Part shown: piece by piece, positions 5,187 through 29,764 of the stretch
Position numbering within the stretch: the stretch's first letter is position 1
Layout: the number at the start of each line of letters is the position of its first letter
Source: Bacteroidota bacterium
Lineage (GTDB): Bacteria; Bacteroidota; Bacteroidia; Bacteroidales; ML635J-15
Direction of reading: 5' to 3'
DNA: 39,708 nt
Assembly: GCA_029558535.1 (NCBI GenBank)
Contig: JAKQEK010000153.1
Span: 1-39,708 of the forward strand
Translations under genes and position numbers: made by a program
The notes under the pieces: generated by a model
What the model was told of the DNA's origin: nothing
Database searches by the model: none
What the model saw: the letters and a program-made list of their open reading frames with translations, nothing else

Positions 5187-6311
5187 TTATTTTTTGTTTG
5201 TTTCCATGCTTTTAAAGCCTGTTCTATTTGTTTTAGTTTTTGGTTTTTTGTTTTCAGCACCAGCACCTTGTTGTTCTGCTTCATCTGGTACATATCCACT
5301 TGATACTTGATCTGCTAACCACTCTACAGTTTTTTTAAGTTCTCCTATTTCTTTAGTATGTTTAGCTTCCAATGTTTTAAATTTTGCATCGTATGCTTTT
5401 TTCATCTCATTGATAGATTTTTGTTGTGCATCTGGTGTAGGATTGACTTTTGATTCTGCACCTTCTGTATCAACAGAATCACCCTTAGGCTTAATCTCTG
5501 AAATCACACCATCTTTTACAATAATCGTGCTTTCATCGCTCATGATGTATTCGCCATCAGCAGCAGGTTGTCCATCAATAGTAACTGCATCACCAACAGC
5601 AGGTGTTTCATTATCTGTTTCTACTGTGATTTTTGCACCACTTGCATCTGTTAACTCGATGGATTTTTTTCCTTCACCGAATTTTGCTTTTATTTTATCT
5701 AAAAAATTCATACCTTTTTGTTTAATTATATTTAATAAATTTTCTTCATCGTTAATTGATTTGAACAAACCCATGTTTACTGCTGGAGTATCCACGAAGT
5801 CACAACCAATAATATCTTTTAAATCATAGCCAAGTATTGTGCCTTGTGTGCCATCTTCAGCTGTTGCTAAAAGTTCTTTAAAAGCAAATAAATAATGTAT
5901 TGATAAACCAAAATCATCAGGATGATTCTTAGCCATTTCTACAATAAAATCAAAGTTGTTACCATTAGGAGAAATCTTAGCTACTGGAGATATGTGTACA
6001 TCTGCAATAACAACACTCTTACCTTCCTTTTCGATTGTTCTATGATTTTTTATATTGCCTAAAAAATTCGGTAATTGGTCTTTACCATCCCAAGATGGAT
6101 GTCCTAATCTGCACTTAACGCCATTTGATTTAGCGTTAGCCATTTCTACATAATTAGATAAAAAATCTTTATCAAAATAATCTCCTACTTTATCATAGCC
6201 CTCTTGTAGTATCTGTACATCTTGAATAATAGCACCTTGTTCGGTTACTACTACATCTTTTCTGCCTGTAAAAGAGGTTGTAATTGATTTTTTATTTTCT
6301 TGAATTGGCAT
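5187..6311 (-). CDS. Capsid maturation protease fused to scaffold
   Basis: 374 residues. Residues 1-190 look like a phage prohead protease: a CRLGHPSWDG segment (candidate His), DDFGLSIHY (candidate Ser) and the typical CDFVDTPAVN strand. Residues about 210-290 hold a small beta domain (PAVGDAVTIDGQPAADGEY) found in phage head proteins. The rest is a coiled-coil scaffold (MKKAYDAKFKTLEAKHTKEIGELKK) with a basic tail. Protease and scaffold in one chain, directly before the capsid gene, is a common arrangement. Catalytic residues are inferred. Confidence 0.7.
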   Translation of the reverse strand: MPIQENKKSITTSFTGRKDVVVTEQGAIIQDVQILQEGYDKVGDYFDKDFLSNYVEMANAKSNGVKCRLGHPSWDGKDQLPNFLGNIKNHRTIEKEGKSVVIADVHISPVAKISPNGNNFDFIVEMAKNHPDDFGLSIHYLFAFKELLATAEDGTQGTILGYDLKDIIGCDFVDTPAVNMGLFKSINDEENLLNIIKQKGMNFLDKIKAKFGEGKKSIELTDASGAKITVETDNETPAVGDAVTIDGQPAADGEYIMSDESTIIVKDGVISEIKPKGDSVDTEGAESKVNPTPDAQQKSINEMKKAYDAKFKTLEAKHTKEIGELKKTVEWLADQVSSGYVPDEAEQQGAGAENKKPKTKTNRTGFKSMETNKK

Positions 6312-18609: not shown

Positions 18610-18999
18610 TTATCTTTCTAAAATTTCAATTTTGTAAATATTTTTAATCCACTTCTTTTTACGCTTGTAATCTCGTGTTCTGAAGCCTTTGGTATCTTCA
18701 ACGATGTAATTTCCTTTGTCGTCAATATATGTGAAGTCAGCAATGTATTTTTCAATCAACTTTCCATTAACGATTAATTCAAAAGGTACTTGCAATTTCA
18801 ATTCTGTGATGTGATTGTACTTTAACAGAAGTTGTAATTCTTTGTACCTTTTGCACTCTTTTATTGAATGAAATTTAACACCATCATATTCAATTATTGT
18901 AGAATTGTATTTGCTTTTTTTACATTGTTTAGCAACTACAATCTGTTCTTGAATGTGCTTAGGTAGTTTTGATATGTCTGATATTTTGAATCGCATCAA
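18610..18999 (-). CDS. DUF1064-family nuclease-like protein
   Basis: 129 residues. The layout FHSIKECKRYKELQLLLKYNHITELKLQVPFELIVNGK...YIADFTYIDDKGNYIVEDTKGF matches DUF1064 (PF06356), a phage PD-(D/E)XK-type fold: Glu in KECKRYKEL, Asp in YIADF, then E-D-x-K in VEDTKG. Such proteins are thought to act as endonucleases or Holliday-junction resolvases. It starts inside the stop of the upstream small gene and ends the early block just before the late promoter. Confidence 0.75.
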   Translation of the reverse strand: MMRFKISDISKLPKHIQEQIVVAKQCKKSKYNSTIIEYDGVKFHSIKECKRYKELQLLLKYNHITELKLQVPFELIVNGKLIEKYIADFTYIDDKGNYIVEDTKGFRTRDYKRKKKWIKNIYKIEILER

Positions 19000-19199: not shown

Positions 19200-19227
19200 T
19201 TTGTTCGCATATATTGGAGTTATAGGC
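19156..19227 (-). repeat. attC-like site S0 (array end, weak)
   Basis: The clear half is GTTATAGGC at 19219-19227, the exact complement of GCCTATAAC at 20442. A possible partner arm is AAC at 19157 with a 6-bp inner match (CTATATG against CATATAT). It overlaps the 5' end of the 67-residue gene. Probably a truncated or inactive terminal site. Confidence 0.4.
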
Positions 19228-19312
19228 AAGCGGGCGGACGTGCTTCGATTGAGCATTTGGGTAGAAAAAAGGTTTAAAAAATTTCCCTCCCTCTTTGTCT
19301 GCTCCGCAGCCA

Positions 19313-20383
19313 TTAAAGTTTTGCTAACCATTGTTCATATACTTGTTTTGCAATTTGTGCAGTCATTACAGGTGGCACACTCATTCCAACCAAATAAACC
19401 ACTTTGTTTGTTTTAAAATCATAGTCCATTGGATAGCTTCCAGCCATTTTAGTTTCATCATCAAATAAAGTCCTTTCAATCTCATAATCATAAGGCAATC
19501 CATTTGCTCTAATTGTTGGCAATACTTTATCAGGTGCAGTTTTTACTTCATTAAAATAGCTTCCTTTTGGGTGGTTTTCACTCATTGCATTTCCGGGCGT
19601 TGTTAGCTTCCAATAATGGCTTATCATTTTACTCAATCCAATAGCACTTTCATTGCCTTGTGTTTGCCTTATTTCTTTGTATGGTATTTCAGGCTCATTA
19701 AATTCTAAATTCAATTCAGGTGCTATTGTAAATAAATCAACACTTTTCAAAAAGGGTGTTGCAATATCTTTTCTCATTGCTATAAAAAACACTCTTTCTC
19801 TTTTTTGTGGCACTCCCATTTTTGAAGCATCTAACAACCAATGTTGCACATAATATCCTGCAAGGTCAAATTCTCTGTAAATTTTCCTTACATATTCCTT
19901 TGCTTCTCCTACCAATAAGCCTTTCACATTTTCAGCTATTACTACTTTTGGTTGCAGTTTTTTAGCCAAGTCTATAAAATCAAAGAAAAGATTATCCAGT
20001 ATTTGTTCTGCTTGTCCTTCTCTAAATTTCTTTTCTTTGCCCCAGTCCTTTTCCCTGTTACCAGCCATTGAAAAACTACTGCAAGGTGGTGAACCATCCA
20101 AAATATCCAATTCATACAATTCTTGAGGCAAGTCATCACGAAGTTTGAAAGTTTGTATCGGCTCTAAATAGGCGTATTTAGGGTTGTGATTTGCCTTGTA
20201 TGCTTCAATCATTTTAGGGTCAATCTCGTTGCATCCTAATACATCAAATCCAGCTAATTTGTAGCCCATTGTTGAACCACCACCACAAGCAAAACAGGAA
20301 AATACTTTGCCTTTGTCTTTGGTAAATACTGCATCTTTTAAAGTCCATTTGTATGGAAAATTATGTTTTTTGCCCTCGCTCAT
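19313..20383 (-). CDS. DNA (cytosine-5) methyltransferase
   Basis: 356 residues. Motif I is FACGGGSTMGYKLAGFD (about 31-47). Motif IV is GSPPCSSFS with the catalytic Cys at 101 (PCSSFS replaces the usual PCQSFS). Motif VI is ENVKG (about 150), motif VIII is QKRERVFFIA (about 195), and motif X is near the C-terminus (PPVMTAQIAKQVYEQW). It transfers a methyl group to C5 of cytosine, probably to hide phage DNA from restriction; no cognate endonuclease is nearby. It is the last cassette of the array; its stop lies 86 bp from the site edge, further than in its neighbours. Confidence 0.92.
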   Translation of the reverse strand: MSEGKKHNFPYKWTLKDAVFTKDKGKVFSCFACGGGSTMGYKLAGFDVLGCNEIDPKMIEAYKANHNPKYAYLEPIQTFKLRDDLPQELYELDILDGSPPCSSFSMAGNREKDWGKEKKFREGQAEQILDNLFFDFIDLAKKLQPKVVIAENVKGLLVGEAKEYVRKIYREFDLAGYYVQHWLLDASKMGVPQKRERVFFIAMRKDIATPFLKSVDLFTIAPELNLEFNEPEIPYKEIRQTQGNESAIGLSKMISHYWKLTTPGNAMSENHPKGSYFNEVKTAPDKVLPTIRANGLPYDYEIERTLFDDETKMAGSYPMDYDFKTNKVVYLVGMSVPPVMTAQIAKQVYEQWLAKL

Positions 20384-20441
20384 TTTTTAAAACTTTTTTT
20401 GTTCGTATTTCTATTTAACTTTTGTACTGAAAATCCCGCCA

Positions 20442-20578
20442 GCCTATAACACGTGTTTTGTGCTATGTGGGCAGACGTGGTAATATCAGAGTTTGTACCT
20501 CTAATTGGCTTTTGTGCAAGGTTGAAAGCGTAGTGCATTAAATCCCACACAGCACAAAGCACCTTAACGTTATATGAT
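20442..20578 (-). repeat. attC-like site S1
   Basis: Ends GCCTATAAC (20442) and GTTATATGAT (20569). The inner arms TGTTTTGTGCTATGTGGG and CCCACACAGCACAAAGCA pair with few mismatches. The loop shares GGGCAGACGTG with S14 and, more loosely, with S5 and the S0 flank. Confidence 0.8.
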
Positions 20579-20581
20579 AGC

Positions 20582-20806
20582 TTAGCCAACGATTACGATT
20601 GGAGAAACAGAGCGACCATCTTCTGCTAATTTTAATTTTCCGCTTGATAAAAAAGAAACAAGCGTTTCAATATTATCAAATTCCTTTATTATTTCTTCAT
20701 CCCAAAACTCTCTTAATATACCAGAGCCATCTGCATTTATTTCTAATGTTGTAGATATGTTATTTCTCTCTTCAAATTCATTCATTAATTTTAAAGTATT
20801 TTCCAT
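20582..20806 (-). CDS. Cassette protein of unknown function
   Basis: 74 residues from the ATG giving MENTLKLMNEF. A TTG-initiated extension to 20836 would run into site S2, so I reject it. Acidic, with LEINADGSGILREFWDEEIIKEF. The stop is 3 bp from the edge of S1. One gene, one site, about 380 bp in total: a typical small cassette. Function unknown. Confidence 0.65.
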   Translation of the reverse strand: MENTLKLMNEFEERNNISTTLEINADGSGILREFWDEEIIKEFDNIETLVSFLSSGKLKLAEDGRSVSPIVIVG

Positions 20807-20824
20807 TTTTCTAAATTTAAAGCC

Positions 20825-20961
20825 ATCATATAACAACGGTTATACAATAGTTGGGTTAATTGTTTAATTTAAAATCTTTTTTGTACTTTTAAAATCTGTG
20901 ATTAATCGAAAGTAAAGGAGTACTAACCCCAACCATCGTATAGCCGTCAAACGTTATAAGC
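20825..20961 (-). repeat. attC-like site S2
   Basis: Ends ATCATATAAC (20825) and GTTATAAGC (20953). The arms ACGGTTATACAATAGTTGGG and CCCCAACCATCGTATAGCCG pair with G-T-type differences. AAC-side spacers are about 1 and 5 bases, the same asymmetry as the other sites. Confidence 0.8.
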
Positions 20962-20967
20962 AAGCTG

Positions 20968-21792
20968 CTACGTTCCTGCTTCACTTGACAATTCCGTTTC
21001 AAAAGAATTAAAAAAAAGCCCACCGCACTCTTTAATACGAGTTTCGATAATCTTACAATACTCTTCTGAAATTTCACTGCCTATATAATTTCTGTTTGTT
21101 TGAACACATATTTTTGCTACTGTTCCACTTCCCATAAAGCAATCATAAACCAAATCACCTTCATTGCTCCAAGTCGTTATGTGGTCATTTGCCAATGCTT
21201 CTGGAAACGGTGCAGGATGTCCAGTTTTTTCACGTCCAAGTGTGTAAGCAAAAATATTTGGTGCAATCTTATTTTCTTTGGTTGCTTTAAATTCGGTTTC
21301 GTCATACAATCTCATAGCGTGTTTTGAGCCGTGATTTTGTCTGCGTTCTAATCCATATTTTTCAACCTTTCCAGCTTGTTTGCAAGGTATCATTATTGGA
21401 TTAAATGTTTTCGGCTTTCCTTTGCTTAAAATAAACATAAACTCAAATGATTGCTCATATCGGTTATGTGTCAATGGCACATAGTTTACTTTTTGGTAAA
21501 TCATTGTATCGTGCAAATTAAATCCTATCTCTTTAAAAAATAATGCTTGCTTAAATGATGTTCCGCTTTCACTTCCATTCATTGTGGCATCTCCAACAAC
21601 CCAAACAACTACACCGCCTTGTTTAGTAATTCTAAATAACTCTTTAGCAATTTCTTCAAATGCAAATGAATAACCTTTGTATTCTCGTAAGTTATCATAA
21701 GGCGGTGAAGTAACCGTTAAGTCAATGAAATTATCGGGCATTTTAGCCATCGTATCAAGGCAATTCTCGTTATATATTTTATTTATTTCCAT
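20968..21792 (-). CDS. DNA methyltransferase, N4/N6 beta-type (TSPPY)
   Basis: 274 residues. The catalytic motif IV is TSPPY at residues 28-32. Motif I lies near the C-terminus (DLVYDCFMGSGTVAKICVQTNRNYIGSEI, about 215-245), the order of the beta class; the PxPFPEAL segment is also typical. It methylates an exocyclic amino group of adenine or cytosine. No restriction partner is seen. The stop is 6 bp from site S2 and the gene is alone in its cassette. Confidence 0.9.
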   Translation of the reverse strand: MEINKIYNENCLDTMAKMPDNFIDLTVTSPPYDNLREYKGYSFAFEEIAKELFRITKQGGVVVWVVGDATMNGSESGTSFKQALFFKEIGFNLHDTMIYQKVNYVPLTHNRYEQSFEFMFILSKGKPKTFNPIMIPCKQAGKVEKYGLERRQNHGSKHAMRLYDETEFKATKENKIAPNIFAYTLGREKTGHPAPFPEALANDHITTWSNEGDLVYDCFMGSGTVAKICVQTNRNYIGSEISEEYCKIIETRIKECGGLFFNSFETELSSEAGT

Positions 21793-21859
21793 CCCTCTTT
21801 TTTTTTAATTCTTTTGTTTAGTGCTTCGATTTAAGTTTTTCGGTAATCAACCGCAGCCA

Positions 21860-21947
21860 GCTTATAACACGGGTTTGGCAAAATGGCTTTCCGACACACA
21901 AGCCAACGCACAAAAGCCACTTCGCCAAGCCCCAAACTGTTATAAGC
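21860..21947 (-). repeat. attC-like site S3
   Basis: Ends GCTTATAAC (21860) and GTTATAAGC (21939). Arms AACACGGGTTTGGC and GCCAAGCCCCAAACTGTT. At 88 bp it is the shortest site. The arms are nearly the same as in S5 and S6, suggesting one source array. Confidence 0.82.
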
Positions 21948-21952
21948 AAGTG

Positions 21953-22756
21953 CTACATTTCGTTTCCAAAGAGAGTTACTACCTGTAAATCTTTTTCTTT
22001 TCTTTTTTCTTCCCACGCTTTTTTAATGCGTTCTTCGGAAATTTTATAATAATTTTCATCAAGTTCAAACCCAATAAAGTTTCTGTTTAAATTAACAGCA
22101 GCAACACCACAAGCACCAGCACCCATTGTAAAATCTAATACTGTATCGCCTTCATTTGAATAGGTTTTAATTAAATACTCATTTAACTCAATAGGCTTTT
22201 GTGTTGGGTGCAAACCGCTTTTATCTTTAGTTAAGTTATTTATTACCTTTATGTCGGTTAAAAGCATTTTTGGGTAACCATATTCACTACTATTATCATT
22301 CCAAGTTAATTGACTTCCGCCTGTTGTGTCTGTTGAGTGCGTCTTACCTTTGTTTTTTTCGGATAGAACACCTTTTGTGTTTTTACGAGTTGGTTGTGGG
22401 TTGTAAGTCGGCGATTGTTTATAAAACACACTTATAATTTCGTAATTCTTTAAGGGCATTTTCTTTGCCATCATTGGGTTGCTTACTCTTTTTTTATCCC
22501 AAATCCAATCATACTTAAACTCATTCATATTACTCATTCGCAAGTTGCTACTAAATGGTTCGCTCCCAAATAAAAGTATAGCACCATTGTCTTTTCTAAT
22601 TCGTTTAAGTTGTTCCCACATTAAATCAAATGGAATAACACTATCCCATTTACAAGCTGTTGTTCCATAAGGAATATCACACAAAACAAAATCAACACTT
22701 CCATTTGGTATTTCTTTCATTAACTCTAAGCAGTTGCCTTGTTTTAAATTTATCAT
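21953..22756 (-). CDS. DNA methyltransferase, beta-type (DIPY), adenine-N6 likely
   Basis: 267 residues. Motif IV is DIPY at residues 27-30. The AdoMet-binding motif is near the C-terminus (TVLDFTMGAGACGVAAVNLNRNFIGFEL), with HPTQKPIEL before it, as in phage and plasmid orphan adenine methyltransferases. TMGAGAC departs slightly from the usual GxGT form. The stop is 5 bp from site S3. With its two neighbours it gives the phage three unlike methyltransferases in adjacent cassettes (with one small unknown between). Confidence 0.88.
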   Translation of the reverse strand: MINLKQGNCLELMKEIPNGSVDFVLCDIPYGTTACKWDSVIPFDLMWEQLKRIRKDNGAILLFGSEPFSSNLRMSNMNEFKYDWIWDKKRVSNPMMAKKMPLKNYEIISVFYKQSPTYNPQPTRKNTKGVLSEKNKGKTHSTDTTGGSQLTWNDNSSEYGYPKMLLTDIKVINNLTKDKSGLHPTQKPIELNEYLIKTYSNEGDTVLDFTMGAGACGVAAVNLNRNFIGFELDENYYKISEERIKKAWEEKRKEKDLQVVTLFGNEM

Positions 22757-22856
22757 ATTCTGTTTTTAATTTATTTTTTATTTTCCCCACCGCACAAAAA
22801 AGAAAAGAAAAAGGTTTTGTCTTTCAAATCAAGTCCTGTGCTATAATACCGCACCA

Positions 22857-22993
22857 GCTTATAACAGCGTGTATATGCAAGTGGCGGTATTGTGGTTTAT
22901 TCAACATTTGTTCTTCTAACTTACATTTGTGGTATATTCAAGTTTTATGTTTCAAATCGCCACCTGACATATACACGCAAAACGTTATGCGTA
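22857..22993 (-). repeat. attC-like site S4
   Basis: Ends GCTTATAAC (22857) and GTTATGCGTA (22984). Arms GCGTGTATATGCAAGTGGCG and CGCCACCTGACATATACACG; the second carries two extra, bulged bases. One of the best stems of the set. Confidence 0.85.
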
Positions 22994-22996
22994 ATT

Positions 22997-23524
22997 TTAG
23001 GACAGACCTCGTAAATGTTCGGCATCTTGTGGAGTTCCTGCGAAATTGATATATCGAAACCAATTGATTTTATCTTCATCAGTAAATTTATTTCCATAAT
23101 CTTCATTTACGATGTAGTAAGGAAACATAAAACCTGCAATTACTCTTTGATAATCTTCGGGCAAATCTTTGTAAAAATAATTTATAGTATCAATTATCAA
23201 CCCAAATTCACCTTTGTAAAAACCAATCATTGCAGATAGCCTTTGTTTGCCATCTATTACTTGGTAAGTTCCTTTTATATCTTCTTTTTCAGAAACTACA
23301 TTTAACATTGCCATTCTTGGTATGTGTCTATTCATTAAAATAGACCATATCAACTCTCTTTTTTGGTCAATAGTCCAAACGTAATCTCTTTGTAAATTTC
23401 TTCCTTTAGTTGGCAAATAAACATCAAAGTCAATATTGCAATTTTCAGCAAAAAACTTAATGCTACTATTTATTTCCTGTGGATGAAATCTTAAAACTGT
23501 TCTTAACTCTCTTATTGTTTTCAT
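22997..23524 (-). CDS. DUF262 (GmrSD N-terminal-like) protein
   Basis: 175 residues, a single DUF262 domain: LQRDYVWTIDQKRELIWSIL at 44-63 and the hallmark DGKQRL at 91-96, related to the DGQQR nucleotide site of the ParB/Srx fold. In full-length GmrSD and similar defence proteins this domain is joined to a nuclease; here the nuclease half is absent. It could be a regulator, a decoy against such systems, or a nucleotide-dependent modifier. The stop is 3 bp from site S4. Confidence 0.8.
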   Translation of the reverse strand: MKTIRELRTVLRFHPQEINSSIKFFAENCNIDFDVYLPTKGRNLQRDYVWTIDQKRELIWSILMNRHIPRMAMLNVVSEKEDIKGTYQVIDGKQRLSAMIGFYKGEFGLIIDTINYFYKDLPEDYQRVIAGFMFPYYIVNEDYGNKFTDEDKINWFRYINFAGTPQDAEHLRGLS

Positions 23525-23555
23525 TGTTATTAATTTAAAATTCGTGATAAAAAAC

Positions 23556-23653
23556 TACGCATAACACGGGTTTGGCAAAAGTGGGCAGACACATCCTGCT
23601 AAAATTGAGCATCCTACAAGCCCACCTTCGCCAAGCCCGAAACCGTTATGGGA
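23556..23653 (-). repeat. attC-like site S5
   Basis: Ends TACGCATAAC (23556) and GTTATGGGA (23645). Arms CGGGTTTGGCAAAAGTGGGC and GCCCACCTTCGCCAAGCCCG; the second has one extra base that would bulge out, as in true attC extrahelical bases. Confidence 0.85.
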
Positions 23654-23683
23654 AATTTTAAAAACCTTTTCCCAACGCACTGT

Positions 23684-24229
23684 TTAACGGACATAAGCAA
23701 CAAATTCAGAACCTCTATTGCAAAATGATTTTACCATTGAGCAAACCAAACCGAAAGACATACCTGAATGCCCTTGTCCTTCAATTATTTCTTTTGCTTT
23801 GTCCAATTCGCAACCTGCATTTAATTCTTTTACAATATCAAGTGTTGCTCCAAGTTCCATTCCTTGATACAAATCATCTAAGCGAATTGGAACGCATTTA
23901 GCCCATTTTTCGTGATATTGTTCATCAAGTATTGCATTGCCCTTTTCAATCCAGTCCTTTGCTAATTCAGGTATGGCTTCTTTGTGCTTTTTTTGTTCCT
24001 CTTTGTATTTGTCATTTTCGGCTTTACGTTCAGCATCAAATTCGGATTTTGTTTTACCTGTAATCTTTTTGTAAGCACTATCCACATTGTCAATATCAGA
24101 GTATAACTTTTGTCCGTTAAACTCACCATAAACTAATTCACCACGTTCTTTAAATCGTGCTAAATCTTGCATTGCTCTTTCGATGCTATCTCCTGCACCA
24201 AATTCAATTTTTCTGTAATTCGTTTCCAT
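23684..24229 (-). CDS. Cassette protein of unknown function
   Basis: 181 residues, helical and charged in the middle (DAERKAENDKYKEEQKKHKEA), with a C-terminal domain containing LYQGMELGATLDIVKELNAG and SGMSFGLVCSMVKSF. No catalytic motif recognised. It is the only gene between S5 and S6, and its stop lies 30 bp from S5. Confidence 0.65.
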   Translation of the reverse strand: METNYRKIEFGAGDSIERAMQDLARFKERGELVYGEFNGQKLYSDIDNVDSAYKKITGKTKSEFDAERKAENDKYKEEQKKHKEAIPELAKDWIEKGNAILDEQYHEKWAKCVPIRLDDLYQGMELGATLDIVKELNAGCELDKAKEIIEGQGHSGMSFGLVCSMVKSFCNRGSEFVAYVR

Positions 24230-24277
24230 TTTTTTAATTTGTCTTTAAATGCCTACCCTAAAAGGTTTTTAAAACTA

Positions 24278-24380
24278 TCCCATAACACGGGTTTGGCGTA
24301 ATGCCGCCAGATAGTTTAGTGCTAAAATTTAAAGTTCGAGCAAGGTGGCACTAACGCCAAGCCCGAAACCGTTAGGTGCA
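24278..24380 (-). repeat. attC-like site S6
   Basis: Ends TCCCATAAC (24278) and GTTAGGTGCA (24371). GTTAGGT fits the classical GTTRRRY consensus exactly. Arms AACACGGGTTTGGCGT and ACGCCAAGCCCGAAACCGTT. Confidence 0.87.
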
Positions 24381-24384
24381 ATGC

Positions 24385-24645
24385 CTAAACCAGCCTTTCG
24401 ATACTTTTATAGCATTCCTTAATTTCGCTTATATGCTCTTCCAAGTATTTATCAAATGAACCTTCACCACCAAATATTTCATCAAGCCTTTCAGATACTT
24501 TGCCTGTAAATGAAGTCCACATATCTTCCTTGCTGCTTTCAGGTTCATAAATAACTACAAGGTGGTTGCTTTGATTATAGTGTAGAACCATAGTAGCATA
24601 AGCGGTTAATTTGTTGGCCGCATATAAGCGAAATTTGCTACTCAT
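24385..24645 (-). CDS. Cassette protein of unknown function
   Basis: 86 residues from ATG 24645 (MSSKFRLYAANKLTAYATM). The frame is open up to an ATG at 24726, but that part lies in the body of site S7, and the cassette itself would start near 24675. The C-terminus is helical and acidic (FDKYLEEHISEIKECYKSIERL). The stop is 4 bp from S6. Whether the 27-residue N-terminal extension is translated is uncertain. Confidence 0.6.
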   Translation of the reverse strand: MSSKFRLYAANKLTAYATMVLHYNQSNHLVVIYEPESSKEDMWTSFTGKVSERLDEIFGGEGSFDKYLEEHISEIKECYKSIERLV

Positions 24646-24666
24646 AGCACCATATTCGTATGGCAC

Positions 24667-24805
24667 TGCACCTAACACAGTATTTGCGTCAGTGGCGGTT
24701 TTGTTCTTCGATTTAACTTTTGTCATAATATTTAATTTTAGTGTTTCAATTTAACTTTAGTGGTTCAATGCGCCACCGAACGCAAATACTCGGCACGTTA
24801 TAAAC
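24667..24805 (-). repeat. attC-like site S7
   Basis: Ends TGCACCTAAC (24667; complement of S6's GTTAGGTGCA) and GTTATAAAC (24797). Arms CAGTATTTGCGTCAGTGGCG and CGCCACCGAACGCAAATACT. The loop contains the possible upstream start of the preceding gene. Confidence 0.82.
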
Positions 24806-24980
24806 AAGTGGTGGAACGATGAGCAACTTCGTTAACATCTACTCTCTCACAGAGAAGCTACCTCTCCGTCTAAGTATCTGCTACTTCCACCACCAGGTGT
24901 TAATGAATTGAGTTGTACACCTCGCATCAAAACCGTTAGCCAAATTCCCCTACTTCTCATACACAAGTACCGTTGTATGC
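24797..24980 (-). repeat. Scrambled attC remnants (S8 zone)
   Basis: Three GTT cores (24797 GTTATAAAC, 24935 GTTAGCC, 24972 GTTGTATGC) occur within 184 bp with no gene between them. GTTGTATGC is the exact complement of GCATACAAC at 26113, so it bounds the next cassette. Short inverted pieces remain (AGTGGTGGAA with TTCCACCAC). This is probably the product of cassette loss or fusion of site halves. I see no coding region in 24646-25017. Confidence 0.55.
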
Positions 24981-25017
24981 AAGTGCTACGAAAGTACTAA
25001 CATTGAATATTTCGTTT

Positions 25018-25305
25018 TTAAATATTATCGTAAATCGGCTCATATAAATCTGGTTGCTTTAAATAATAATTATCTGTATAAATTGTAGCAAGTTCGTGAT
25101 TCCCTCTCCAATCAATAGAACCAGTTTTTTTATTTCTAAATGCTTTAATTTTTAAATCTAACCATCCTATTGAGTTGCTAAATTCAGGAAACCTATGTAC
25201 CCCATTTTCGTCTTTTATTACCTTTGATTTTACAATATTGCCATTTTTTAATACTGCAATAAATTCAAAACCTTCTTTATTTGGAAGTAATGATAAATTT
25301 TTCAT
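25018..25305 (-). CDS. Cassette protein of unknown function
   Basis: 95 residues, beta-rich (FEFIAVLKNGNIVKSKVIKDENG), with GWLDLKIKAF and IDWRGNHELATIYTDNYYL. Last gene of a three-gene cassette (25018-26061) between the S8 zone and S9. No family recognised. Confidence 0.6.
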   Translation of the reverse strand: MKNLSLLPNKEGFEFIAVLKNGNIVKSKVIKDENGVHRFPEFSNSIGWLDLKIKAFRNKKTGSIDWRGNHELATIYTDNYYLKQPDLYEPIYDNI

Positions 25306-25334
25306 AAATTTTCTATTTCTTTTTTAACTGCTTT

Positions 25335-25538
25335 TCAAAAATTCTTACGCAAATGACAATCATATAAATCAAAACTATCACATTCCGATATAATGTCATT
25401 GAGATAAACTAAAGTGCATTGTTTGGCTAAATAAATTTCATCTTCCTGAACTAAATGATTATATACATCTGCTTTTCTTATATGCGTTCTGTATTTGTTC
25501 AGCAACTCCTCTGCTTTTTCTTTTGTTGGGTTTTTCAT
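25335..25538 (-). CDS. Small cassette protein of unknown function
   Basis: 67 residues, helical, with three Cys near the C-terminus (KQCTLVY, SECDSFDLYDC). It starts 1 bp after the stop of the 173-residue gene, implying coupled translation. Function unknown. Confidence 0.6.
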   Translation of the reverse strand: MKNPTKEKAEELLNKYRTHIRKADVYNHLVQEDEIYLAKQCTLVYLNDIISECDSFDLYDCHLRKNF

Positions 25539-25539
25539 T

Positions 25540-26061
25540 TTAATTTATTTTTGATTCTACAATATTTTTTAGTTTTTTGGTTAATATATCAAGGTCTATA
25601 TAAGTAGTATTATTACACTCTCCTATAATTATGGCAATTTCTCTAATACTCAAACAACTTTTATTTAAAACAATATATTCTTCCGCTTTTTCTAAAGTTG
25701 AAAAAAATATTCTTCGTGGATATAGTTCTGTTATATTGTCAGAAACAGTTAGGCACATTATTGTGTCTATTAAAGAAGGAGAATTTTCAACTGAAAAGAC
25801 TTTATCGTCTATGAACTTACTTACACCATCAACTGTGGTTAATACAAATCTGTTCTCTTCTTCATATGTTATTATCTTTAATTGACCAATAAATTCATTA
25901 ATGCTATTTAATTTATCTTGATATTCCTTTGCTATGCTATACTCTTGTTTTTGCAAGTAAGGTTTGATAATAGTAATTAACTTTTGTCTTTCTTTTTCAT
26001 AAAGTTCTATCAGAAAATTTATCTTTTCATTTATGCTTAACTTTTTTATTTCTTTCCCCAT
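25540..26061 (-). CDS. Cassette protein of unknown function
   Basis: 173 residues, mostly helical N-terminal half (KINFLIELYEKERQKLITIIKPYL) and a C-terminal part with CLSIREIAIIIGECNNTTY, possibly helix-turn-helix-like. First gene of the only multi-gene unit with fully matching cassette ends (GTTGTATGC/GCATACAAC). Function unknown. Confidence 0.6.
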   Translation of the reverse strand: MGKEIKKLSINEKINFLIELYEKERQKLITIIKPYLQKQEYSIAKEYQDKLNSINEFIGQLKIITYEEENRFVLTTVDGVSKFIDDKVFSVENSPSLIDTIMCLTVSDNITELYPRRIFFSTLEKAEEYIVLNKSCLSIREIAIIIGECNNTTYIDLDILTKKLKNIVESKIN

Positions 26062-26112
26062 TGTTTTAATATTTAGTTATTAATTTAAAATTAGTGTTTC
26101 AAAACAGCACCA

Positions 26113-26247
26113 GCATACAACATTGTATATAAGAAATGGGGGTGTAGCGGTATATCGTAGTCCCCAGCTACTGTCGGACTTTCGGTAGCGACCCGAGCTT
26201 ATGTGCTTTCTAATCCCCCACTTCTCATACTGCAAACCGTTAGTGGC
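26113..26247 (-). repeat. attC-like site S9
   Basis: Ends GCATACAAC (26113) and GTTAGTGGC (26239). Arms TGTATATAAGAAATGGGGG and CCCCCACTTCTCATACTGC. The second arm is nearly the same as 24946-24964 in the scrambled zone. Confidence 0.82.
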
Positions 26248-26252
26248 AATCG

Positions 26253-26534
26253 TTAAGACAGCTCCGAAGGTCTCCAACGACTTCCTCTTGTTAACCAATG
26301 CGGATTATCTCCAGACTTACCAAATGACTTTTGAAATTCAATAGGCTTTCCTGTGTTGCTTTCAAAATAAGCATCTAACATATGTGGTGCTTCTTTGGTG
26401 TAAACCCATCCTTCTTCATCAATAATGTCTTTAACCATATCCCAGTACTGAGCGTAAGCCGATTGAAAACGACTGCCACTAACAGCACCTATACCCAATT
26501 GGGCGGTTTCGTTGTTTTTTGAAGTTTCTTCCAT
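26253..26534 (-). CDS. Cassette protein of unknown function
   Basis: 93 residues from ATG 26534, but residues 1-17 or so lie in site S10. The first ATG inside the cassette is at 26438 (MVKDIIDEEGWVYTKEAP), giving 61 residues. The C-terminus is basic and Trp-rich (NPHWLTRGSRWRPSE). The stop is 5 bp from S9. Function unknown; start uncertain. Confidence 0.55.
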   Translation of the reverse strand: MEETSKNNETAQLGIGAVSGSRFQSAYAQYWDMVKDIIDEEGWVYTKEAPHMLDAYFESNTGKPIEFQKSFGKSGDNPHWLTRGSRWRPSELS

Positions 26535-26610
26535 TCTATTAAGTTTTATCTGTTTTGAAATTTTGTTTATTTAATTGCCCAACTGGGCATAGCTGCGCAA
26601 CCTTACGACA
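26475..26610 (-). repeat. attC-like site S10 (right core mutated)
   Basis: Left end GCCACTAAC (26475) is the exact complement of S9's GTTAGTGGC. Arms GCACCTATACCCAATTGGGC and GCCCAACTGGGCATAGCTGC pair well. The right core reads CTTACGACAG where GTT is expected, so one crossover end seems lost. The next stop codon lies within it. Confidence 0.65.
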
Positions 26611-26914
26611 GTACTCCGTAGTCATATTGCTTTGTGGTTTCATTCCATTTGACAAAATACTCATAGCTTTCATCCCCAGCCTTATTGTAACCAATGCAAG
26701 GTTCGTAATGCTGAATACGTTTATTTTTGTCAAAGTGCATTCCTAAAAATGCTGATACTAATTGTCCTAATTCTGCACCACTCCAACGACCTTTACACAA
26801 ATCAACGGCTTCTTTAATATCTGCTAAAATGTTTTCAGGAAATCCATCGTGGCTTCGGTCAATATGAATAAAGTCATTACCGTCTTGAAATTTAATATTT
26901 GCTCTTGTACTCAT
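26603..26914 (-). CDS. MSTRA-type small conserved protein
   Basis: 103 residues. The N-terminus MSTRANIKFQDG followed by HIDRSHDGFPENILADIKEAV resembles a widespread phage and plasmid family with an MSTRA start and an H-x-DG-(Y/F)-P motif, of unknown function. The stop lies at the mutated core of S10. Cassette-borne. Confidence 0.65.
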   Translation of the reverse strand: MSTRANIKFQDGNDFIHIDRSHDGFPENILADIKEAVDLCKGRWSGAELGQLVSAFLGMHFDKNKRIQHYEPCIGYNKAGDESYEYFVKWNETTKQYDYGVLS

Positions 26915-26954
26915 TTTTATTTGTTTTTTAGTTAATAATTCACTTAAAAAGGCT

Positions 26955-27062
26955 GCTTATAACTGTGGTTTTGTGCTATTTGCCCCATTAAGTTTGTCGT
27001 TAAATTGAAGCCTTGTGCAAGGGCAAACTGACACAAAGCCGCAAACCGTTGGTGGTAATGCC
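26955..27062 (-). repeat. attC-like site S11
   Basis: Ends GCTTATAAC (26955) and GTTGGTGGTA (27048). Arms TGGTTTTGTGCTATTTGCCC and GGGCAAACTGACACAAAGCC, sharing AACTGTGGTTTTG with S12. Its right end does not match the next left end exactly. Confidence 0.78.
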
Positions 27063-27072
27063 ACGAGACACC

Positions 27073-27399
27073 CTAAAATGGCAAGTCATCAGAACCTTTT
27101 TGATTTCTATTCTTAAAAAATCTTCTGACTTTTGCAGGGAATTGATACCTTACATATCGCCAAAAAACATTTCTACACCAGTATATTTTCCAAATAAACC
27201 ATATTTGTAATTTTGCATACCAATTATATTCAAAGTCTGAAATTTTACAGCAAAAAATGGAACTTGACAATGGTCCTTCAACTACTTTTACTTCAAAAGC
27301 ATTATGATACATAAAGAAAACAGGGTTCAATACAACATCCCATTTCATTAATTTATCTTTTGCTTTAATCCTAATATTTAAGTGCAAATGGCTTTTCAT
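27073..27399 (-). CDS. Hypothetical protein with SSB-like DDLPF tail
   Basis: 108 residues, rich in Trp, Tyr and Phe and basic, with KVRRFFKNRNQKGSDDLPF at the end. DDLPF at an extreme C-terminus is the form of the acidic tip by which single-stranded DNA-binding proteins recruit repair and replication partners. The phage SSB-like protein at 32343 has the same ending. It may compete for host SSB partners or act as a second SSB; the body does not show a clear OB fold to me. It begins the multi-gene stretch between S11 and S12. Confidence 0.6.
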   Translation of the reverse strand: MKSHLHLNIRIKAKDKLMKWDVVLNPVFFMYHNAFEVKVVEGPLSSSIFCCKISDFEYNWYAKLQIWFIWKIYWCRNVFWRYVRYQFPAKVRRFFKNRNQKGSDDLPF

Positions 27400-27400
27400 T

Positions 27401-27569
27401 TTAATTTTTATTTTCGGTTAAATAATCATATAATTTGCCAGCATCAGACAAATCAATTATGCTATTGTCTTGTCTAAATGCTTGTAATTCTTTATTCTTT
27501 TTGCCAAAATCTAATTCCCATAAAAAATACTCTATCCAGGCTTAAAGAATACTTTTTGTTATGTCGCAT
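27401..27569 (-). pseudogene. Frameshifted small gene
   Basis: ATG at 27569 (MRHNKKYSLS) overlaps the previous stop, but the frame soon diverges. One base later in phase the sequence reads WIEYFLWELDFGKKNKELQA through to a stop at 27401, clearly protein-like. A +1 shift near CTTTAAGCC would join them into about 55 residues. It could be a real mutation, a programmed shift or an assembly error. Confidence 0.45.
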
Positions 27570-27732
27570 TTTTTCCTTTATTTTTTTTCCCACCCACCGC
27601 TACGGATTGAGATTTTTCGATAAACATAACCTCAATATAATTAGTGAGCGAGCGATGTTCTTTTTCTGCGAGTTGCTGAATTTTAGAAACCAATTCTTCT
27701 TCAAGTTTCCAAGTATAATTTTTCTTTGCCAT
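27559..27732 (-). CDS. Small ribbon-helix-helix-like protein
   Basis: 57 residues: MAKKNYTWKLEEELVSKIQQ, then LAEKEHRSLTNYIEVMFIEK and a Gly/Lys tail. The strand, helix, turn (HRSLTNYI), helix pattern is that of Arc/CopG-type regulators. It starts 2 bp after the stop of the upstream gene. It may regulate its local operon (inference). Confidence 0.65.
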   Translation of the reverse strand: MAKKNYTWKLEEELVSKIQQLAEKEHRSLTNYIEVMFIEKSQSVAVGGKKNKGKNAT

Positions 27733-27734
27733 AA

Positions 27735-27965
27735 TTAATTTTCGCTTTCAATTTCAAAATAATTGTCACCAGCTCTAACGCTTTCGTCTCCTTTTTCAGC
27801 AACTACTTTACCATCAACTTCGTGATAAATTGTTTCTGCTTCATTGTCATAAATGTAGCCGTTTGAAAAATCTTCTACTGTTGTAAATAGCTTTTCAATT
27901 GCTTGCTCTTTAGTAAGCCCAGTTACTAAATCTCTCCCGTTTTTTGTGATTTTAAATGTTTGCAT
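27735..27965 (-). CDS. Hypothetical acidic protein
   Basis: 76 residues, strongly acidic in the second half (DNEAETIYHEVDGKVVAEKGDES). The N-terminus MQTFKITKNGRDLVTGLTKEQAIEKL resembles small proteins that fold as a short beta sheet plus helix. Middle gene of the 27.1-28.2 kb operon. The charge could suggest DNA mimicry, but that is speculation. Confidence 0.55.
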   Translation of the reverse strand: MQTFKITKNGRDLVTGLTKEQAIEKLFTTVEDFSNGYIYDNEAETIYHEVDGKVVAEKGDESVRAGDNYFEIESEN

Positions 27966-27983
27966 CTTTTTATATTTAATTGA

Positions 27984-28244
27984 TTAATAAATTACATCTC
28001 CCATTATTGGATTAAAACGACCAAATGCCTCACGTACTTTTTTAGTAAACCAATCAGCAACTACTCCTTCAGCATCAATTACTGACTTAGGAAACCAGCA
28101 CTCAACTAAATAGCCTGTACTTAAATTTTCGTTTCCATTTACGCCATAAACTATTGATGGTCGATTTTCGTTAAATTTAAAACCAACTACATAAAGTATT
28201 GCTTTTTCTGTCTCTTTTACTATTGTGAAATTTGAAGTTGTCAT
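27984..28244 (-). CDS. Hypothetical protein, first gene of an internal operon
   Basis: 86 residues from ATG 28244 (MTTSNFTIVKETEKAILY). A longer frame to 28298 would include the promoter and is rejected. Beta-rich, with LVECWFPKSVID and EGVVADWFTKKVREAF. A well-formed promoter lies just upstream, so this and the next genes are transcribed independently within the array. Confidence 0.65.
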   Translation of the reverse strand: MTTSNFTIVKETEKAILYVVGFKFNENRPSIVYGVNGNENLSTGYLVECWFPKSVIDAEGVVADWFTKKVREAFGRFNPIMGDVIY

Positions 28245-28267
28245 TTTATTATCTCTTTTTGTTGACA

Positions 28268-28298
28268 CAAAGATAAGTAAATTACAATTACTATGCAA
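28268..28298 (-). promoter_or_regulatory. Promoter inside the array
   Basis: On the minus strand TTG (plus CAA at 28296-28298) is followed after 20 bp by TATCTTTG (28268-28275), matching TAnnTTTG. RNA would start about 17 bp before ATG 28244. Just upstream, AAGTATTTTTA is repeated in tandem (about 28298-28325), possibly an UP element or operator. I saw no such match in the gaps before the cassette genes I checked. Confidence 0.6.
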
Positions 28299-28401
28299 GT
28301 ATTTTTAAAGTATTTTTAAAGTATTTTGTTAAAATATCTTAATTCATTGAAAATCAATCAAAAAAAATACACCACCCGCACAAAAAATAAAGAATAAAAC
28401 G

Positions 28402-28538
28402 ACCACATAACTGTGGTTTTGCAATAGTGGGGCTTTTGTGCTTTACTGGTCATTTGTACTTCTATTTAAGTTTAGTTGTGGGTTGAACATTTGTGCCTTG
28501 AAGCCCCACCATCGCAAAGCCCCGATACGTTGGCTGCT
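28402..28538 (-). repeat. attC-like site S12
   Basis: Ends ACCACATAAC (28402) and GTTGGCTGCT (28529). Arms TTTTGCAATAGTGGGGCTT and AAGCCCCACCATCGCAAAG. The stop codon of the next gene falls inside the right end. Confidence 0.82.
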
Positions 28539-28752
28539 ACTTTTTGACACACCCCAATTCTTTAAAGTAGCTGTAAACAGCTTTTCTTTCTTTGCTACAT
28601 TTACACTCTGACACCTGTTGAATAATTACATTGAAACAATCGAACAAATCCATCATTTGTTGTCTTGTAAATGACATTTTTTGATTTGGGCTATTTCTTG
28701 TATTGTAAGTAAATTTTACAATAGGTTGAATGTTTTCGATAATCTTACTCAT
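28537..28752 (-). CDS. Small cassette protein of unknown function
   Basis: 71 residues, helical, with CKCSKERKAVYSYFKELGC near the C-terminus. Its start overlaps the stop of the DUF3820-like gene by 4 bp, and its stop lies within S12. The two genes form one cassette bounded by GTTGGCTGCT/AGCAGCCAAC. Function unknown. Confidence 0.6.
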   Translation of the reverse strand: MSKIIENIQPIVKFTYNTRNSPNQKMSFTRQQMMDLFDCFNVIIQQVSECKCSKERKAVYSYFKELGCVKK

Positions 28753-28967
28753 TTATTTGATTTTTTAATTCTCATTTCAACTGGAATATTTGCTGTTATT
28801 GCTCGTTTAAGGCTTTTACTAAATTGACTATACCATGTTGTTTTATACTTTAACCACACCAAATAATGTTTTGGTATTTCTGAAAGTGGTATTCCTTTAT
28901 GCTTCCCAAACCAGAGAGTTGTATTACTCTGATAGTATTCAGTAGCTTCTCTAAAATCGTTTGACAT
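28749..28967 (-). CDS. DUF3820-like protein
   Basis: 72 residues. The core FGKHKGIPLSEIPKHYLVWL matches the (F/M)GKYKG-x-x-(L/I)-x-x-(I/V)P-x-x-Y(L/V)xWL signature of DUF3820, small proteins found alone or next to nuclease domains and in phages. Their molecular role is not settled. Cassette gene between S12 and S13. Confidence 0.7.
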   Translation of the reverse strand: MSNDFREATEYYQSNTTLWFGKHKGIPLSEIPKHYLVWLKYKTTWYSQFSKSLKRAITANIPVEMRIKKSNK

Positions 28968-28993
28968 AAAATAATTTTAAGTTTCTAATTAGC

Positions 28994-29086
28994 AGCAGCC
29001 AACAAAGCGTTTTATGCTATGGCTGGACAAAGTTTTTCAGGTTGAAGTCTACGCTTGCCACAGCATAAAGCGCAAACGTTAGCGGT
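28994..29086 (-). repeat. attC-like site S13
   Basis: Ends AGCAGCCAAC (28994, complement of S12's GTTGGCTGCT) and GTTAGCGGT (29078). Arms GCGTTTTATGCTATGGC and GCCACAGCATAAAGCGC; compact, 93 bp. Confidence 0.85.
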
Positions 29087-29090
29087 CAGG

Positions 29091-29324
29091 CTAATCGACA
29101 ACAACCTCACGCTTGATTGTATCAGGTTTTAATCTACCCATTATTTGCTCCCTAACTTCCAAAGCGATGAAGTCAGCAACTCCAATTAATTCTAATGGAT
29201 TAAAACCATCATTTTTGCGATACATTCCTTGAGTTCCGTCTTCATAATGTTGTACAGTTACTGTATATGTTTTGGTTGTAACTACTTTCTTTTCTCGCTT
29301 TTCAGCTACTTTTTTATTTGACAT
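29091..29324 (-). CDS. Small cassette protein of unknown function
   Basis: 77 residues from ATG 29324 (MSNKKVAEKREKKVV). A longer frame to 29408 would read through site S14. Lys-rich start, then TYTVTVQHYEDGTQGMYRKNDGF and FIALEVREQIMGRL. The stop is 4 bp from S13. Function unknown. Confidence 0.6.
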   Translation of the reverse strand: MSNKKVAEKREKKVVTTKTYTVTVQHYEDGTQGMYRKNDGFNPLELIGVADFIALEVREQIMGRLKPDTIKREVVVD

Positions 29325-29357
29325 TTTTAAAAATTTAATTATTAAACAAAAGCCCGA

Positions 29358-29490
29358 ACCGCTAACAATGTATTGCCAAAAGTGGGGCAGACGTGCCAAA
29401 TTCAGCAATTGAACTACTAATTTACTTTTGTGCTATCGTGAGGCAGTAGTTCTTTTAATCCCCACCTGACAGCAATACTTTACCATTATG
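29358..29490 (-). repeat. attC-like site S14 (first site, right core mutated)
   Basis: Left end ACCGCTAAC (29358) is the exact complement of S13's GTTAGCGGT. Arms TGTATTGCCAAAAGTGGGG and CCCCACCTGACAGCAATAC. The right core reads ATTATGTGAG in place of GTT. It is the upstream edge of the array. Confidence 0.72.
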
Positions 29491-29764
29491 TGAGATGCGA
29501 CTTCGCACCGTCCACAACTTCCGATTTTATATAATCAATTAAGGTTTTTATTTTGATTTCAGTTTGATTTTTCACGGGCTCATTATGAACTAAAAACGCT
29601 TCCAAAGTTCTTACAACGTCCATCATTGTAACTAACTGACCTTTATAGGCTAATTCTTTGTAAGTTTCTTTGTTAAGTAACTCAACCATTCGACTAAAAG
29701 TCATTTGTCCTGCCTGGACTTGACTAAGCATTTTTTTTATTTGTGCTTCTTTAAAAATTCCCAT
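29486..29764 (-). CDS. Hypothetical protein at the array's upstream edge
   Basis: 92 residues, helical (MGIFKEAQIKKMLSQVQAGQMTFSRMVELLNKETYKELA). The stop codon lies in the mutated core of S14, so the gene is either the first cassette or the last backbone gene; no further attC-like site lies upstream. Function unknown. Confidence 0.6.
   Translation of the reverse strand: MGIFKEAQIKKMLSQVQAGQMTFSRMVELLNKETYKELAYKGQLVTMMDVVRTLEAFLVHNEPVKNQTEIKIKTLIDYIKSEVVDGAKSHLT

Follow-up and report, generated by a model that had tools for sequence, protein, structure and literature searches.

The 39,708-nt contig JAKQEK010000153.1 of a Bacteroidota bacterium (GenBank assembly GCA_029558535.1), referred to at its full length as the window, is a phage genome that carries an array of ~13 small gene units at ~19219-29491, most of them provided with a hairpin joint. 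That this array is integron-like is close to certain. The reading that we favor, and consider quite probable, is that it is a cassette array in which a XerA-like tyrosine recombinase, not of the IntI type and acting in trans, excises and joins the units at a G|TT box.

The window is a whole contig of a metagenome bin and carries a 141-bp direct terminal repeat, which argues that it represents a complete phage genome, in agreement with a preliminary description of this DNA made from the sequence alone. Its proteins match portal, TerL and tape-measure functions, as well as endolysin, holin and exonuclease. The hairpin sites of the array were identified in two ways. A hairpin scan demanding AAC and GTT ends (threshold 34) called 10 sites in the window, all within the array, against one in total in 12 block-shuffled windows. 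Since such a scan selects for pairing, a covariance model (R1), trained on 21 sites of other phages and none from the window, was used as a separate test. This model recognized 12 sites, all on the + strand and all in 20444-29491, with none beyond the array; the E-values ranged from 3.7e-13 to 0.047, nine of them being no higher than 2.5e-7. A 13th palindrome (~26115-26245) is degenerate and was missed by R1.

The R1 training alignment shows both-sided changes in 20 of 25 pairs, with 107 such cells compared to a shuffled mean of 35.6, a level of pairing that is partly built in because the training sites had been chosen by the hairpin scan. The site sequences themselves are divergent (mean column identity of 50% in alignment A2); another alignment, A1, was discarded for model building because of its unequal spacer lengths. 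The inner four pairs of the R box are invariant in all 21 training sites, AAC and GTT having been required by the scan itself. The outer three pairs fail in 12, 11 and 8 of the 21 rows, which fits an exchange of outer letters between units.

The 13 units drawn from these sites span 364-1481 bp, and the 12 R1 sites 84-134 bp. These sizes, as well as the stop codons found at the site edge, are as first described. A single gene is not the rule for all units, as two long ones (24798-26238 and 27049-28529) contain several open reading frames (ORFs) each. The left boundary and the units are as follows (scores in bits are those of R1):

19207-19225, + strand: attI-like left boundary, CATATATTGGAGTTATAGG, with the expected crossover at G|TT of 19219-19221
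19220-20569, - strand: unit 1, C5 DNA methyltransferase (19313-20383; Pfam PF00145, 6.7e-45); site 20444-20575, 44.3 bits
20570-20953, - strand: unit 2, 84-aa ORF (20582-20836) without a Pfam match; site 20828-20959, 63.9 bits
20954-21939, - strand: unit 3, N6/N4 methyltransferase (20968-21792; PF01555, 1.2e-42); site 21862-21945, 50.6 bits
21940-22984, - strand: unit 4, N6/N4 methyltransferase (21953-22756; PF01555, 3.9e-28); site 22859-22990, 69.4 bits
22985-23645, - strand: unit 5, GmrSD_N-type protein (22997-23524; PF03235, 4e-15); site 23559-23651, 64.6 bits
23646-24371, - strand: unit 6, 181-aa ORF (23684-24229); site 24280-24377, 70.8 bits
24372-24797, - strand: unit 7, 113-aa ORF (24385-24726) starting within its own site; site 24670-24803, 46.8 bits
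24798-26238, - strand: unit 8, long, ORFs 25018-25305, 25540-26061 and others; degenerate palindrome at ~26115-26245, not matched by R1
26239-26602, - strand: unit 9, 93-aa ORF (26253-26534) starting within its own site; site 26477-26608, 29.7 bits
26603-27048, - strand: unit 10, 103-aa ORF (26603-26914); site 26957-27054, 60.6 bits
27049-28529, - strand: unit 11, ORFs 27073-27399, 27984-28298 and others; site 28405-28535, 45.1 bits
28530-29078, - strand: unit 12, two short ORFs of 71 and 72 aa; site 28997-29084, 25.7 bits
29079-29485, - strand: unit 13, 105-aa ORF (29091-29408); site 29360-29491, 20.2 bits (E 0.047)

Among the cassette ORFs scanned, no Pfam match was found beyond the three methyltransferases and the GmrSD_N-type protein. 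The two ends of unit 4 share 79% and 85% DNA identity with the boundary-proximal unit of another phage contig (L082), and over 26955-27050 the site of unit 10 shows 94.8% identity with one from cultured Flavobacterium phages.

Movement of units was observed in relatives. Lillamyvirus, a genus of cultured Flavobacterium phages, carries sites of the same kind as the window, and between its near-identical isolates the differences amount to entire units. One unit of 439 bp, with 100% identity, is located at 5637-6080 in lillamy9-1 and at 2037-2480 in lillamy9-7, and is absent from snork9-1, snork6-1, snork6-2 and sniff9-2. The junctions map to the GTT box that closes a site on the right (+ strand). 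In all ordered pairs of the eight isolates, 238 of 297 alignment ends and 35 of 44 distinct contexts (which are not independent events) fall within box zones that make up 4% of the bases; the nine contexts outside these zones comprise seven to the right of the last site and two lying 18 nt inside a site. At most breakpoints, only ~5-12 letters are shared. Rather than forming fixed parts of a stable operon, which the preliminary description had named as the refuting case, the sites delimit units that related phages gain, lose and move.

A second group of isolates showed the same in Polaribacter phage Freya, in which five isolates have five different unit ends at one constant AACACCCC, one of them without a unit. 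Next to its integrase, Freya_1 carries the empty junction TTTACAAC-ACCCC, and in Freya_5, 6, 9 and 10 other unit ends are attached to the constant AACACCCC. In Freya_1 and Freya_5 the left breaks coincide, to the nucleotide, with hairpin-site boxes of Freya_10; the break in Freya_9 likewise ends in AAC, at a place not called as a hairpin site. Judging by record lengths and gene tables, Freya_8 appears to be missing an internal unit. It is in these relatives, Lillamyvirus and Freya, and not in the window, that crossover at G|TT of the R' box was seen. Across the Freya group (L307-L313), what distinguishes the isolates is entire units next to an annotated integrase, starting from the empty junction. 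In the paper on their isolation, the integrase was read as a potential for temperate life, and the words "integron" and "cassette" do not occur in its main text (PMC8776804).

The left boundary of the window array, CATATATTGGAGTTATAGG, matches boundaries located beside phage recombinases and beside those of Flavobacterium, e.g. CATATAAACAAGTTAGC in the latter, and what had been taken for a weak terminal site at 19219 resembles attI, not attC. The motif ATATA-N4/5-AGTTR, written after these boundaries had been inspected, occurs no farther than 220 nt from the recombinase at 37 of 78 loci, compared to 2 of 1505 control stretches. Of five phage boundaries it fits those of the window and L082 but not the other three; within the window it occurs once on the + strand (at 19209) and at two other places on the - strand. 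In three phage contigs (L082/L260, L104/L265 and L263) the enzyme gene adjoins the array boundary and shares the leftward direction of the cassette genes, opposite to the rightward-pointing sites. Sites were present at three of nine viral recombinase loci, and five have fewer than 230 bases on the side concerned; no sites were found at locus L268 (26% identity). Phages Leef and Ingeline encode a related integrase, and no R1 match was found in the 17.5-18 kb covered. No integrase lies beside the attI-like motif of the window. A Holliday-junction-resolvase-like ORF (18610-18999; phrog_190, E 3.9e-29) is situated immediately left of the boundary, where other phages keep their recombinase.

Arrays of the same site type are widespread in chromosomes. 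R1 matches (E 1e-3) were found in 200 of 395 sampled genomes of the class Bacteroidia, with at most eight candidates scored per genome. When named genomes were scanned with four array recombinases, at least 502 relatives emerged, of which the best 80, mostly from Flavobacterium, were taken as recombinase loci. All 203 R1 sites in these loci lie 3' of the recombinase and on its strand, and none was found in 717 kb upstream. A site is present at 51 of the 80 loci, and at 41 of the 47 that have at least 2.5 kb of downstream sequence. One such locus (L236), with a recombinase and two R1 sites downstream, belongs to Flavobacterium psychrophilum DSM 3660, the type strain of a fish-associated species. 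Array units of three genomes (L136, L138 and L154) have in common a pair of adjacent ORFs of ~384 and ~432 codons.

Five array recombinases (one of them cut by the end of its stretch) were aligned with four IntI proteins and found to lack the IntI-specific insert. A tree was built from 36 proteins, with ORFs chosen by profile; L156 and L158 of the window's own genome, which have no ORF in the stretch, were left out. The ten IntI proteins lie on one side of a 100/100 branch and the array enzymes outside it; 16 chromosomal enzymes cluster at 99/100, and six of the seven from phages at 97/90. L138 and L265 fall outside their groups and join each other through long branches, and L157 of the window's own genome joins IntI weakly (82/46). 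Two chromosomal array enzymes score 225.5 and 222.9 with the XerA-like NCBIfam model NF040815 (cut-off 220), and two phage enzymes 179.6 and 188.5. The array enzymes differ from XerA-like recombinases in being linked to hairpin-site arrays, and the family label is an annotation only. XerA proper acts on a single dif site. The Xer group is concerned with dimer resolution (PMC8138268).

The bin that holds the window contains 32 R1 matches, 9 on the window contig and 23 on other contigs. Its other arrays mostly show chromosome-like polarity (13 of 17 genes lie just left of a site), and one contig (C316, L270) carries a second, phage-like array with genes against sites. An enzyme of the bin, C113, is 61% identical to a chromosomal array recombinase.

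The preliminary description gave the sites the same polarity as the genes. This proved incorrect: the crossover point in relatives, the R1 orientation and the spacer asymmetry all assign the window sites to the + strand, and 18 of the 19 array ORFs counted lie on the - strand. The same arrangement prevails in phages, where 133 ORFs run against the sites and 13 with them. Only loci with more than one site entered this count (21 of 30). Of the eight Lillamyvirus isolates it draws on L072 alone, and L098, which nearly duplicates L097, contributes a single one of its six sites. In contrast to phages, 176 ORFs run with the sites and 35 against in 20 chromosomal regions (omitting 2 of 109 matches, the partial L140 697-806 and the + strand duplicate L142 9880-10010), and 244 with and 38 against in the Flavobacterium set, with a median stop-to-site gap of 10 bp. 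Phages are thus the mirror image of chromosomes relative to the sites. Because the junctions of relatives lie in the right-end GTT box, each unit comprises a hairpin site and, downstream of it, a gene oriented away from the site. Two counts fit this definition: 32 of 108 phage genes start within their own site, and 36 of 115 stop codons are the TTA of the box itself. At 24670-24803 and 26477-26608 in the window, the left arm of the site consequently encodes the first residues of the protein.

The bottom strand of the site folds better in 10 of 12 window sites, 101 of 118 other phage sites, 139 of 203 sites of the Flavobacterium set and 23 of 30 IntI sites. Relative to the site, the better-folding strand is the same in phages and chromosomes, despite their opposite gene polarity. 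In the fifth pair of the stem, T.G (A.C on the opposite strand) is retained in 18 of the 21 training sites; this one pair accounts for 77 of the 83 G.T pairs in phage sites and for 136 of 150 in Flavobacterium-set sites. It is possibly a recognition mark.

The array shares with IntI integrons its small gene units, hairpin sites with RYYYAAC/GTTRRRY-like ends, and a short left and a long right spacer; taken with its relatives, it further resembles them in the G|TT crossover, an attI-like boundary beside a tyrosine recombinase and a better-folding bottom strand. However, the aligned recombinases are without the IntI insert and outside the IntI group, an IntI-attC model gives the sites scarcely any score, their extra base is in the opposite arm, and the phage genes are oriented against the sites, whereas canonical cassette genes are oriented with them. 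The reverse integrons of Treponema have an integrase pointing to the array, an orientation also seen here in the chromosomal recombinases, but their gene-to-attC polarity is canonical. Phage carriage of cassette arrays as such is already known, contrary to the initial claim that no such system had been described: Qi et al. (2023) reported 17 phage clusters of attC sites lacking integron integrases (CALINs), virulent phages included, with 5 of 6 sites recombined by IntI1 (PMC9892861). A CALIN there comprises at least two attC sites, three in the example of Tetrasphaera phage TJE1. Like the window, the CALINs of this phage and of Polaribacter phage P12002L are cassette-like arrays that include methyltransferases and have no integrase in cis; unlike here, no XerA-like recombinase, isolate-to-isolate movement of units or site-against-gene polarity is described in the parts of PMC9892861 considered. 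R1 found nothing in P12002L or TJE1, even at E 1. Among the open-licence PMC papers listed by our searches, none dealt with an integron-like system of Bacteroidia that lacks IntI, or with cassette genes in inverted orientation. As far as these searches show, what is new comprises the enzyme family, the site type, its occurrence across the class and the inversion of phage genes relative to the sites.

These published arrays raise the possibility that the window carries an ordinary CALIN, an IntI attC cluster taken up from a bacterial integron, on which an IntI of the host would act. The bottom-strand bias resembles that of IntI attCs, and a covariance model (R2) trained on 21 IntI-adjacent attCs gave 17 weak matches in 11 phage sources, on one strand per array, 16 of them on R1 sites and one on a hairpin-scan site. 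However, these matches score only 15-22 bits, the two in the window 21.8 and 16.7 bits (E 0.007 and 0.13). Of the 70 R2 matches at E 0.1 in 37 sources, 67 fell in IntI loci, 66 of these at 31-109 bits (training sites included) and one at 21.0. At the same threshold none of 12 Flavobacterium-set loci was matched, and three matches on R1 sites of genomes of the class scored 20.7-22.2 bits. Conversely, R1 gave six weak matches (E 0.13-0.39) in 20 IntI regions from the wider phylum, all in IntI arrays and in the attC orientation. R1-type and IntI-type sites are therefore alike but distinct. The IntI model TIGR02249 found nothing over cut-off in the window's own genome and matched 85 of 296 genomes of the phylum sample, one of which belongs to the same class. 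An IntI origin is supported neither by these TIGR02249 searches nor by the IntI-attC model. By the CALIN criterion, the window has 12 attC-like sites without IntI, which are marginal by the IntI-attC model. Taken together with linked enzymes that lack the IntI insert and genes that run against the sites, this makes an ordinary CALIN quite improbable. Of the attC cassette array first proposed, the integron-like array is well supported, but ordinary IntI attCs are not, with R2 scores of at most 22 bits and enzymes outside the IntI group.

Several observations weigh against the XerA-like reading. No matching tyrosine recombinase was found with three profiles at E 1 among 330 ORFs of the window and lillamy9-1 together, and no R1 match in the 6 kb around C113; moreover, it is not certain that the window contig belongs to the host of the bin. 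The movement of units is known from relatives, not from the window's own units. Six of the 47 recombinase loci with room for a site have none, R1 gives no score to the Freya sites (which thus represent a further subtype), and part of the pairing signal in R1 is built in, as stated above. The site orientation, uniform in 19 of 21 phage loci, is mixed in L089 and L103, and the extra base of the inner loop occupies the arm opposite to that in IntI attCs. Finally, the right boxes of unit 9 (CTTACG at 26602) and unit 13 (ATTATG at 29485) are decayed. These decayed boxes, the missing recombinase and the two long multi-ORF units would suit a relic, built by the recombinase of an ancestral phage and now frozen. 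Yet the units of Lillamyvirus move between near-identical isolates although no matching recombinase was found there either, and the attI-like boundary and most other boxes of the window are intact; we regard a relic as unlikely. A search by TerL for relatives of the window phage gave three loci. The closest, L064 (74% in TerL), has no R1 match and just a methyltransferase at the expected place of the array, which shows absence of the array at wide divergence and not unit swapping. A further explanation holds the palindromes to be transcription terminators or RNA elements, with units spread by homologous recombination between repeats. Hairpins do lie between same-strand genes, phage genomes are mosaic and the breakpoints share a few bases. 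Nevertheless, we consider it highly improbable: the letters shared at most Lillamyvirus breakpoints number only ~5-12, the site sequences differ widely, the folding bias follows the site despite opposite gene polarity, and the sites are linked to one recombinase family. A terminator or RNA element was rejected, the sites having no Rfam match at the gathering threshold.

According to the reading that we favor, units of the window array would be excised and joined at the G|TT box by a XerA-like, non-IntI tyrosine recombinase. Since the window phage encodes no recombinase, the enzyme would have to act in trans, coming presumably from the host or a co-infecting phage. It may cut a folded single strand, most likely the bottom strand of the site, and new units would enter at the attI-like boundary near 19219. 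Expression of the units probably depends on phage transcription that enters from the right and runs leftward, and this would account for the inverted orientation of the genes. The array itself may still be active.

The three DNA methyltransferase units of the window probably act against host restriction. Such units would shield phage DNA, and swapping them would change the protection quickly. According to Nilsson et al., the LMO9 phages that plated poorly on strain LMO6 were missing one methyltransferase, and lillamy9-1 and morran9-1, which like the other isolates compared here belong to that set, are the phages re-grown on LMO6 to study this plating effect (PMC7077304). An 843-bp methyltransferase gene between sites is present in five of the eight Lillamyvirus isolates (three snork and two sniff) and absent from lillamy9-1, lillamy9-7 and morran9-1; we infer that it is the methyltransferase of the published plating difference. 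The presence or absence of this methyltransferase thus splits the isolates (L067-L074) 5:3 and may underlie their plating on LMO6.

Integrons have been treated as the work of one enzyme family, IntI. With IntegronFinder 2.0, complete integrons of the Bacteroidetes/Chlorobi group were reported only in Chlorobi, Ignavibacteriae and Salinibacter (PMC9024848). We lean towards a broader interpretation, in which a second integron lineage, with a XerA-like enzyme that lacks the IntI domain, extends across Bacteroidia and their phages, and phages have inverted it into a swappable anti-restriction kit served by their own recombinase or by one borrowed from the host. In phages, the same sites and attI end would be retained, with genes and recombinase reading the opposite way. 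If this is true, the same logic realized with another enzyme would show which parts of IntI are needed for hairpin recombination. It would also explain gene arrays in Flavobacterium (51 loci here, among the best 80 of at least 502 relatives). In the cultured phages Freya and Lillamyvirus, the gain and loss of cassettes could be followed directly. The system also bears on how phages re-equip themselves against restriction.

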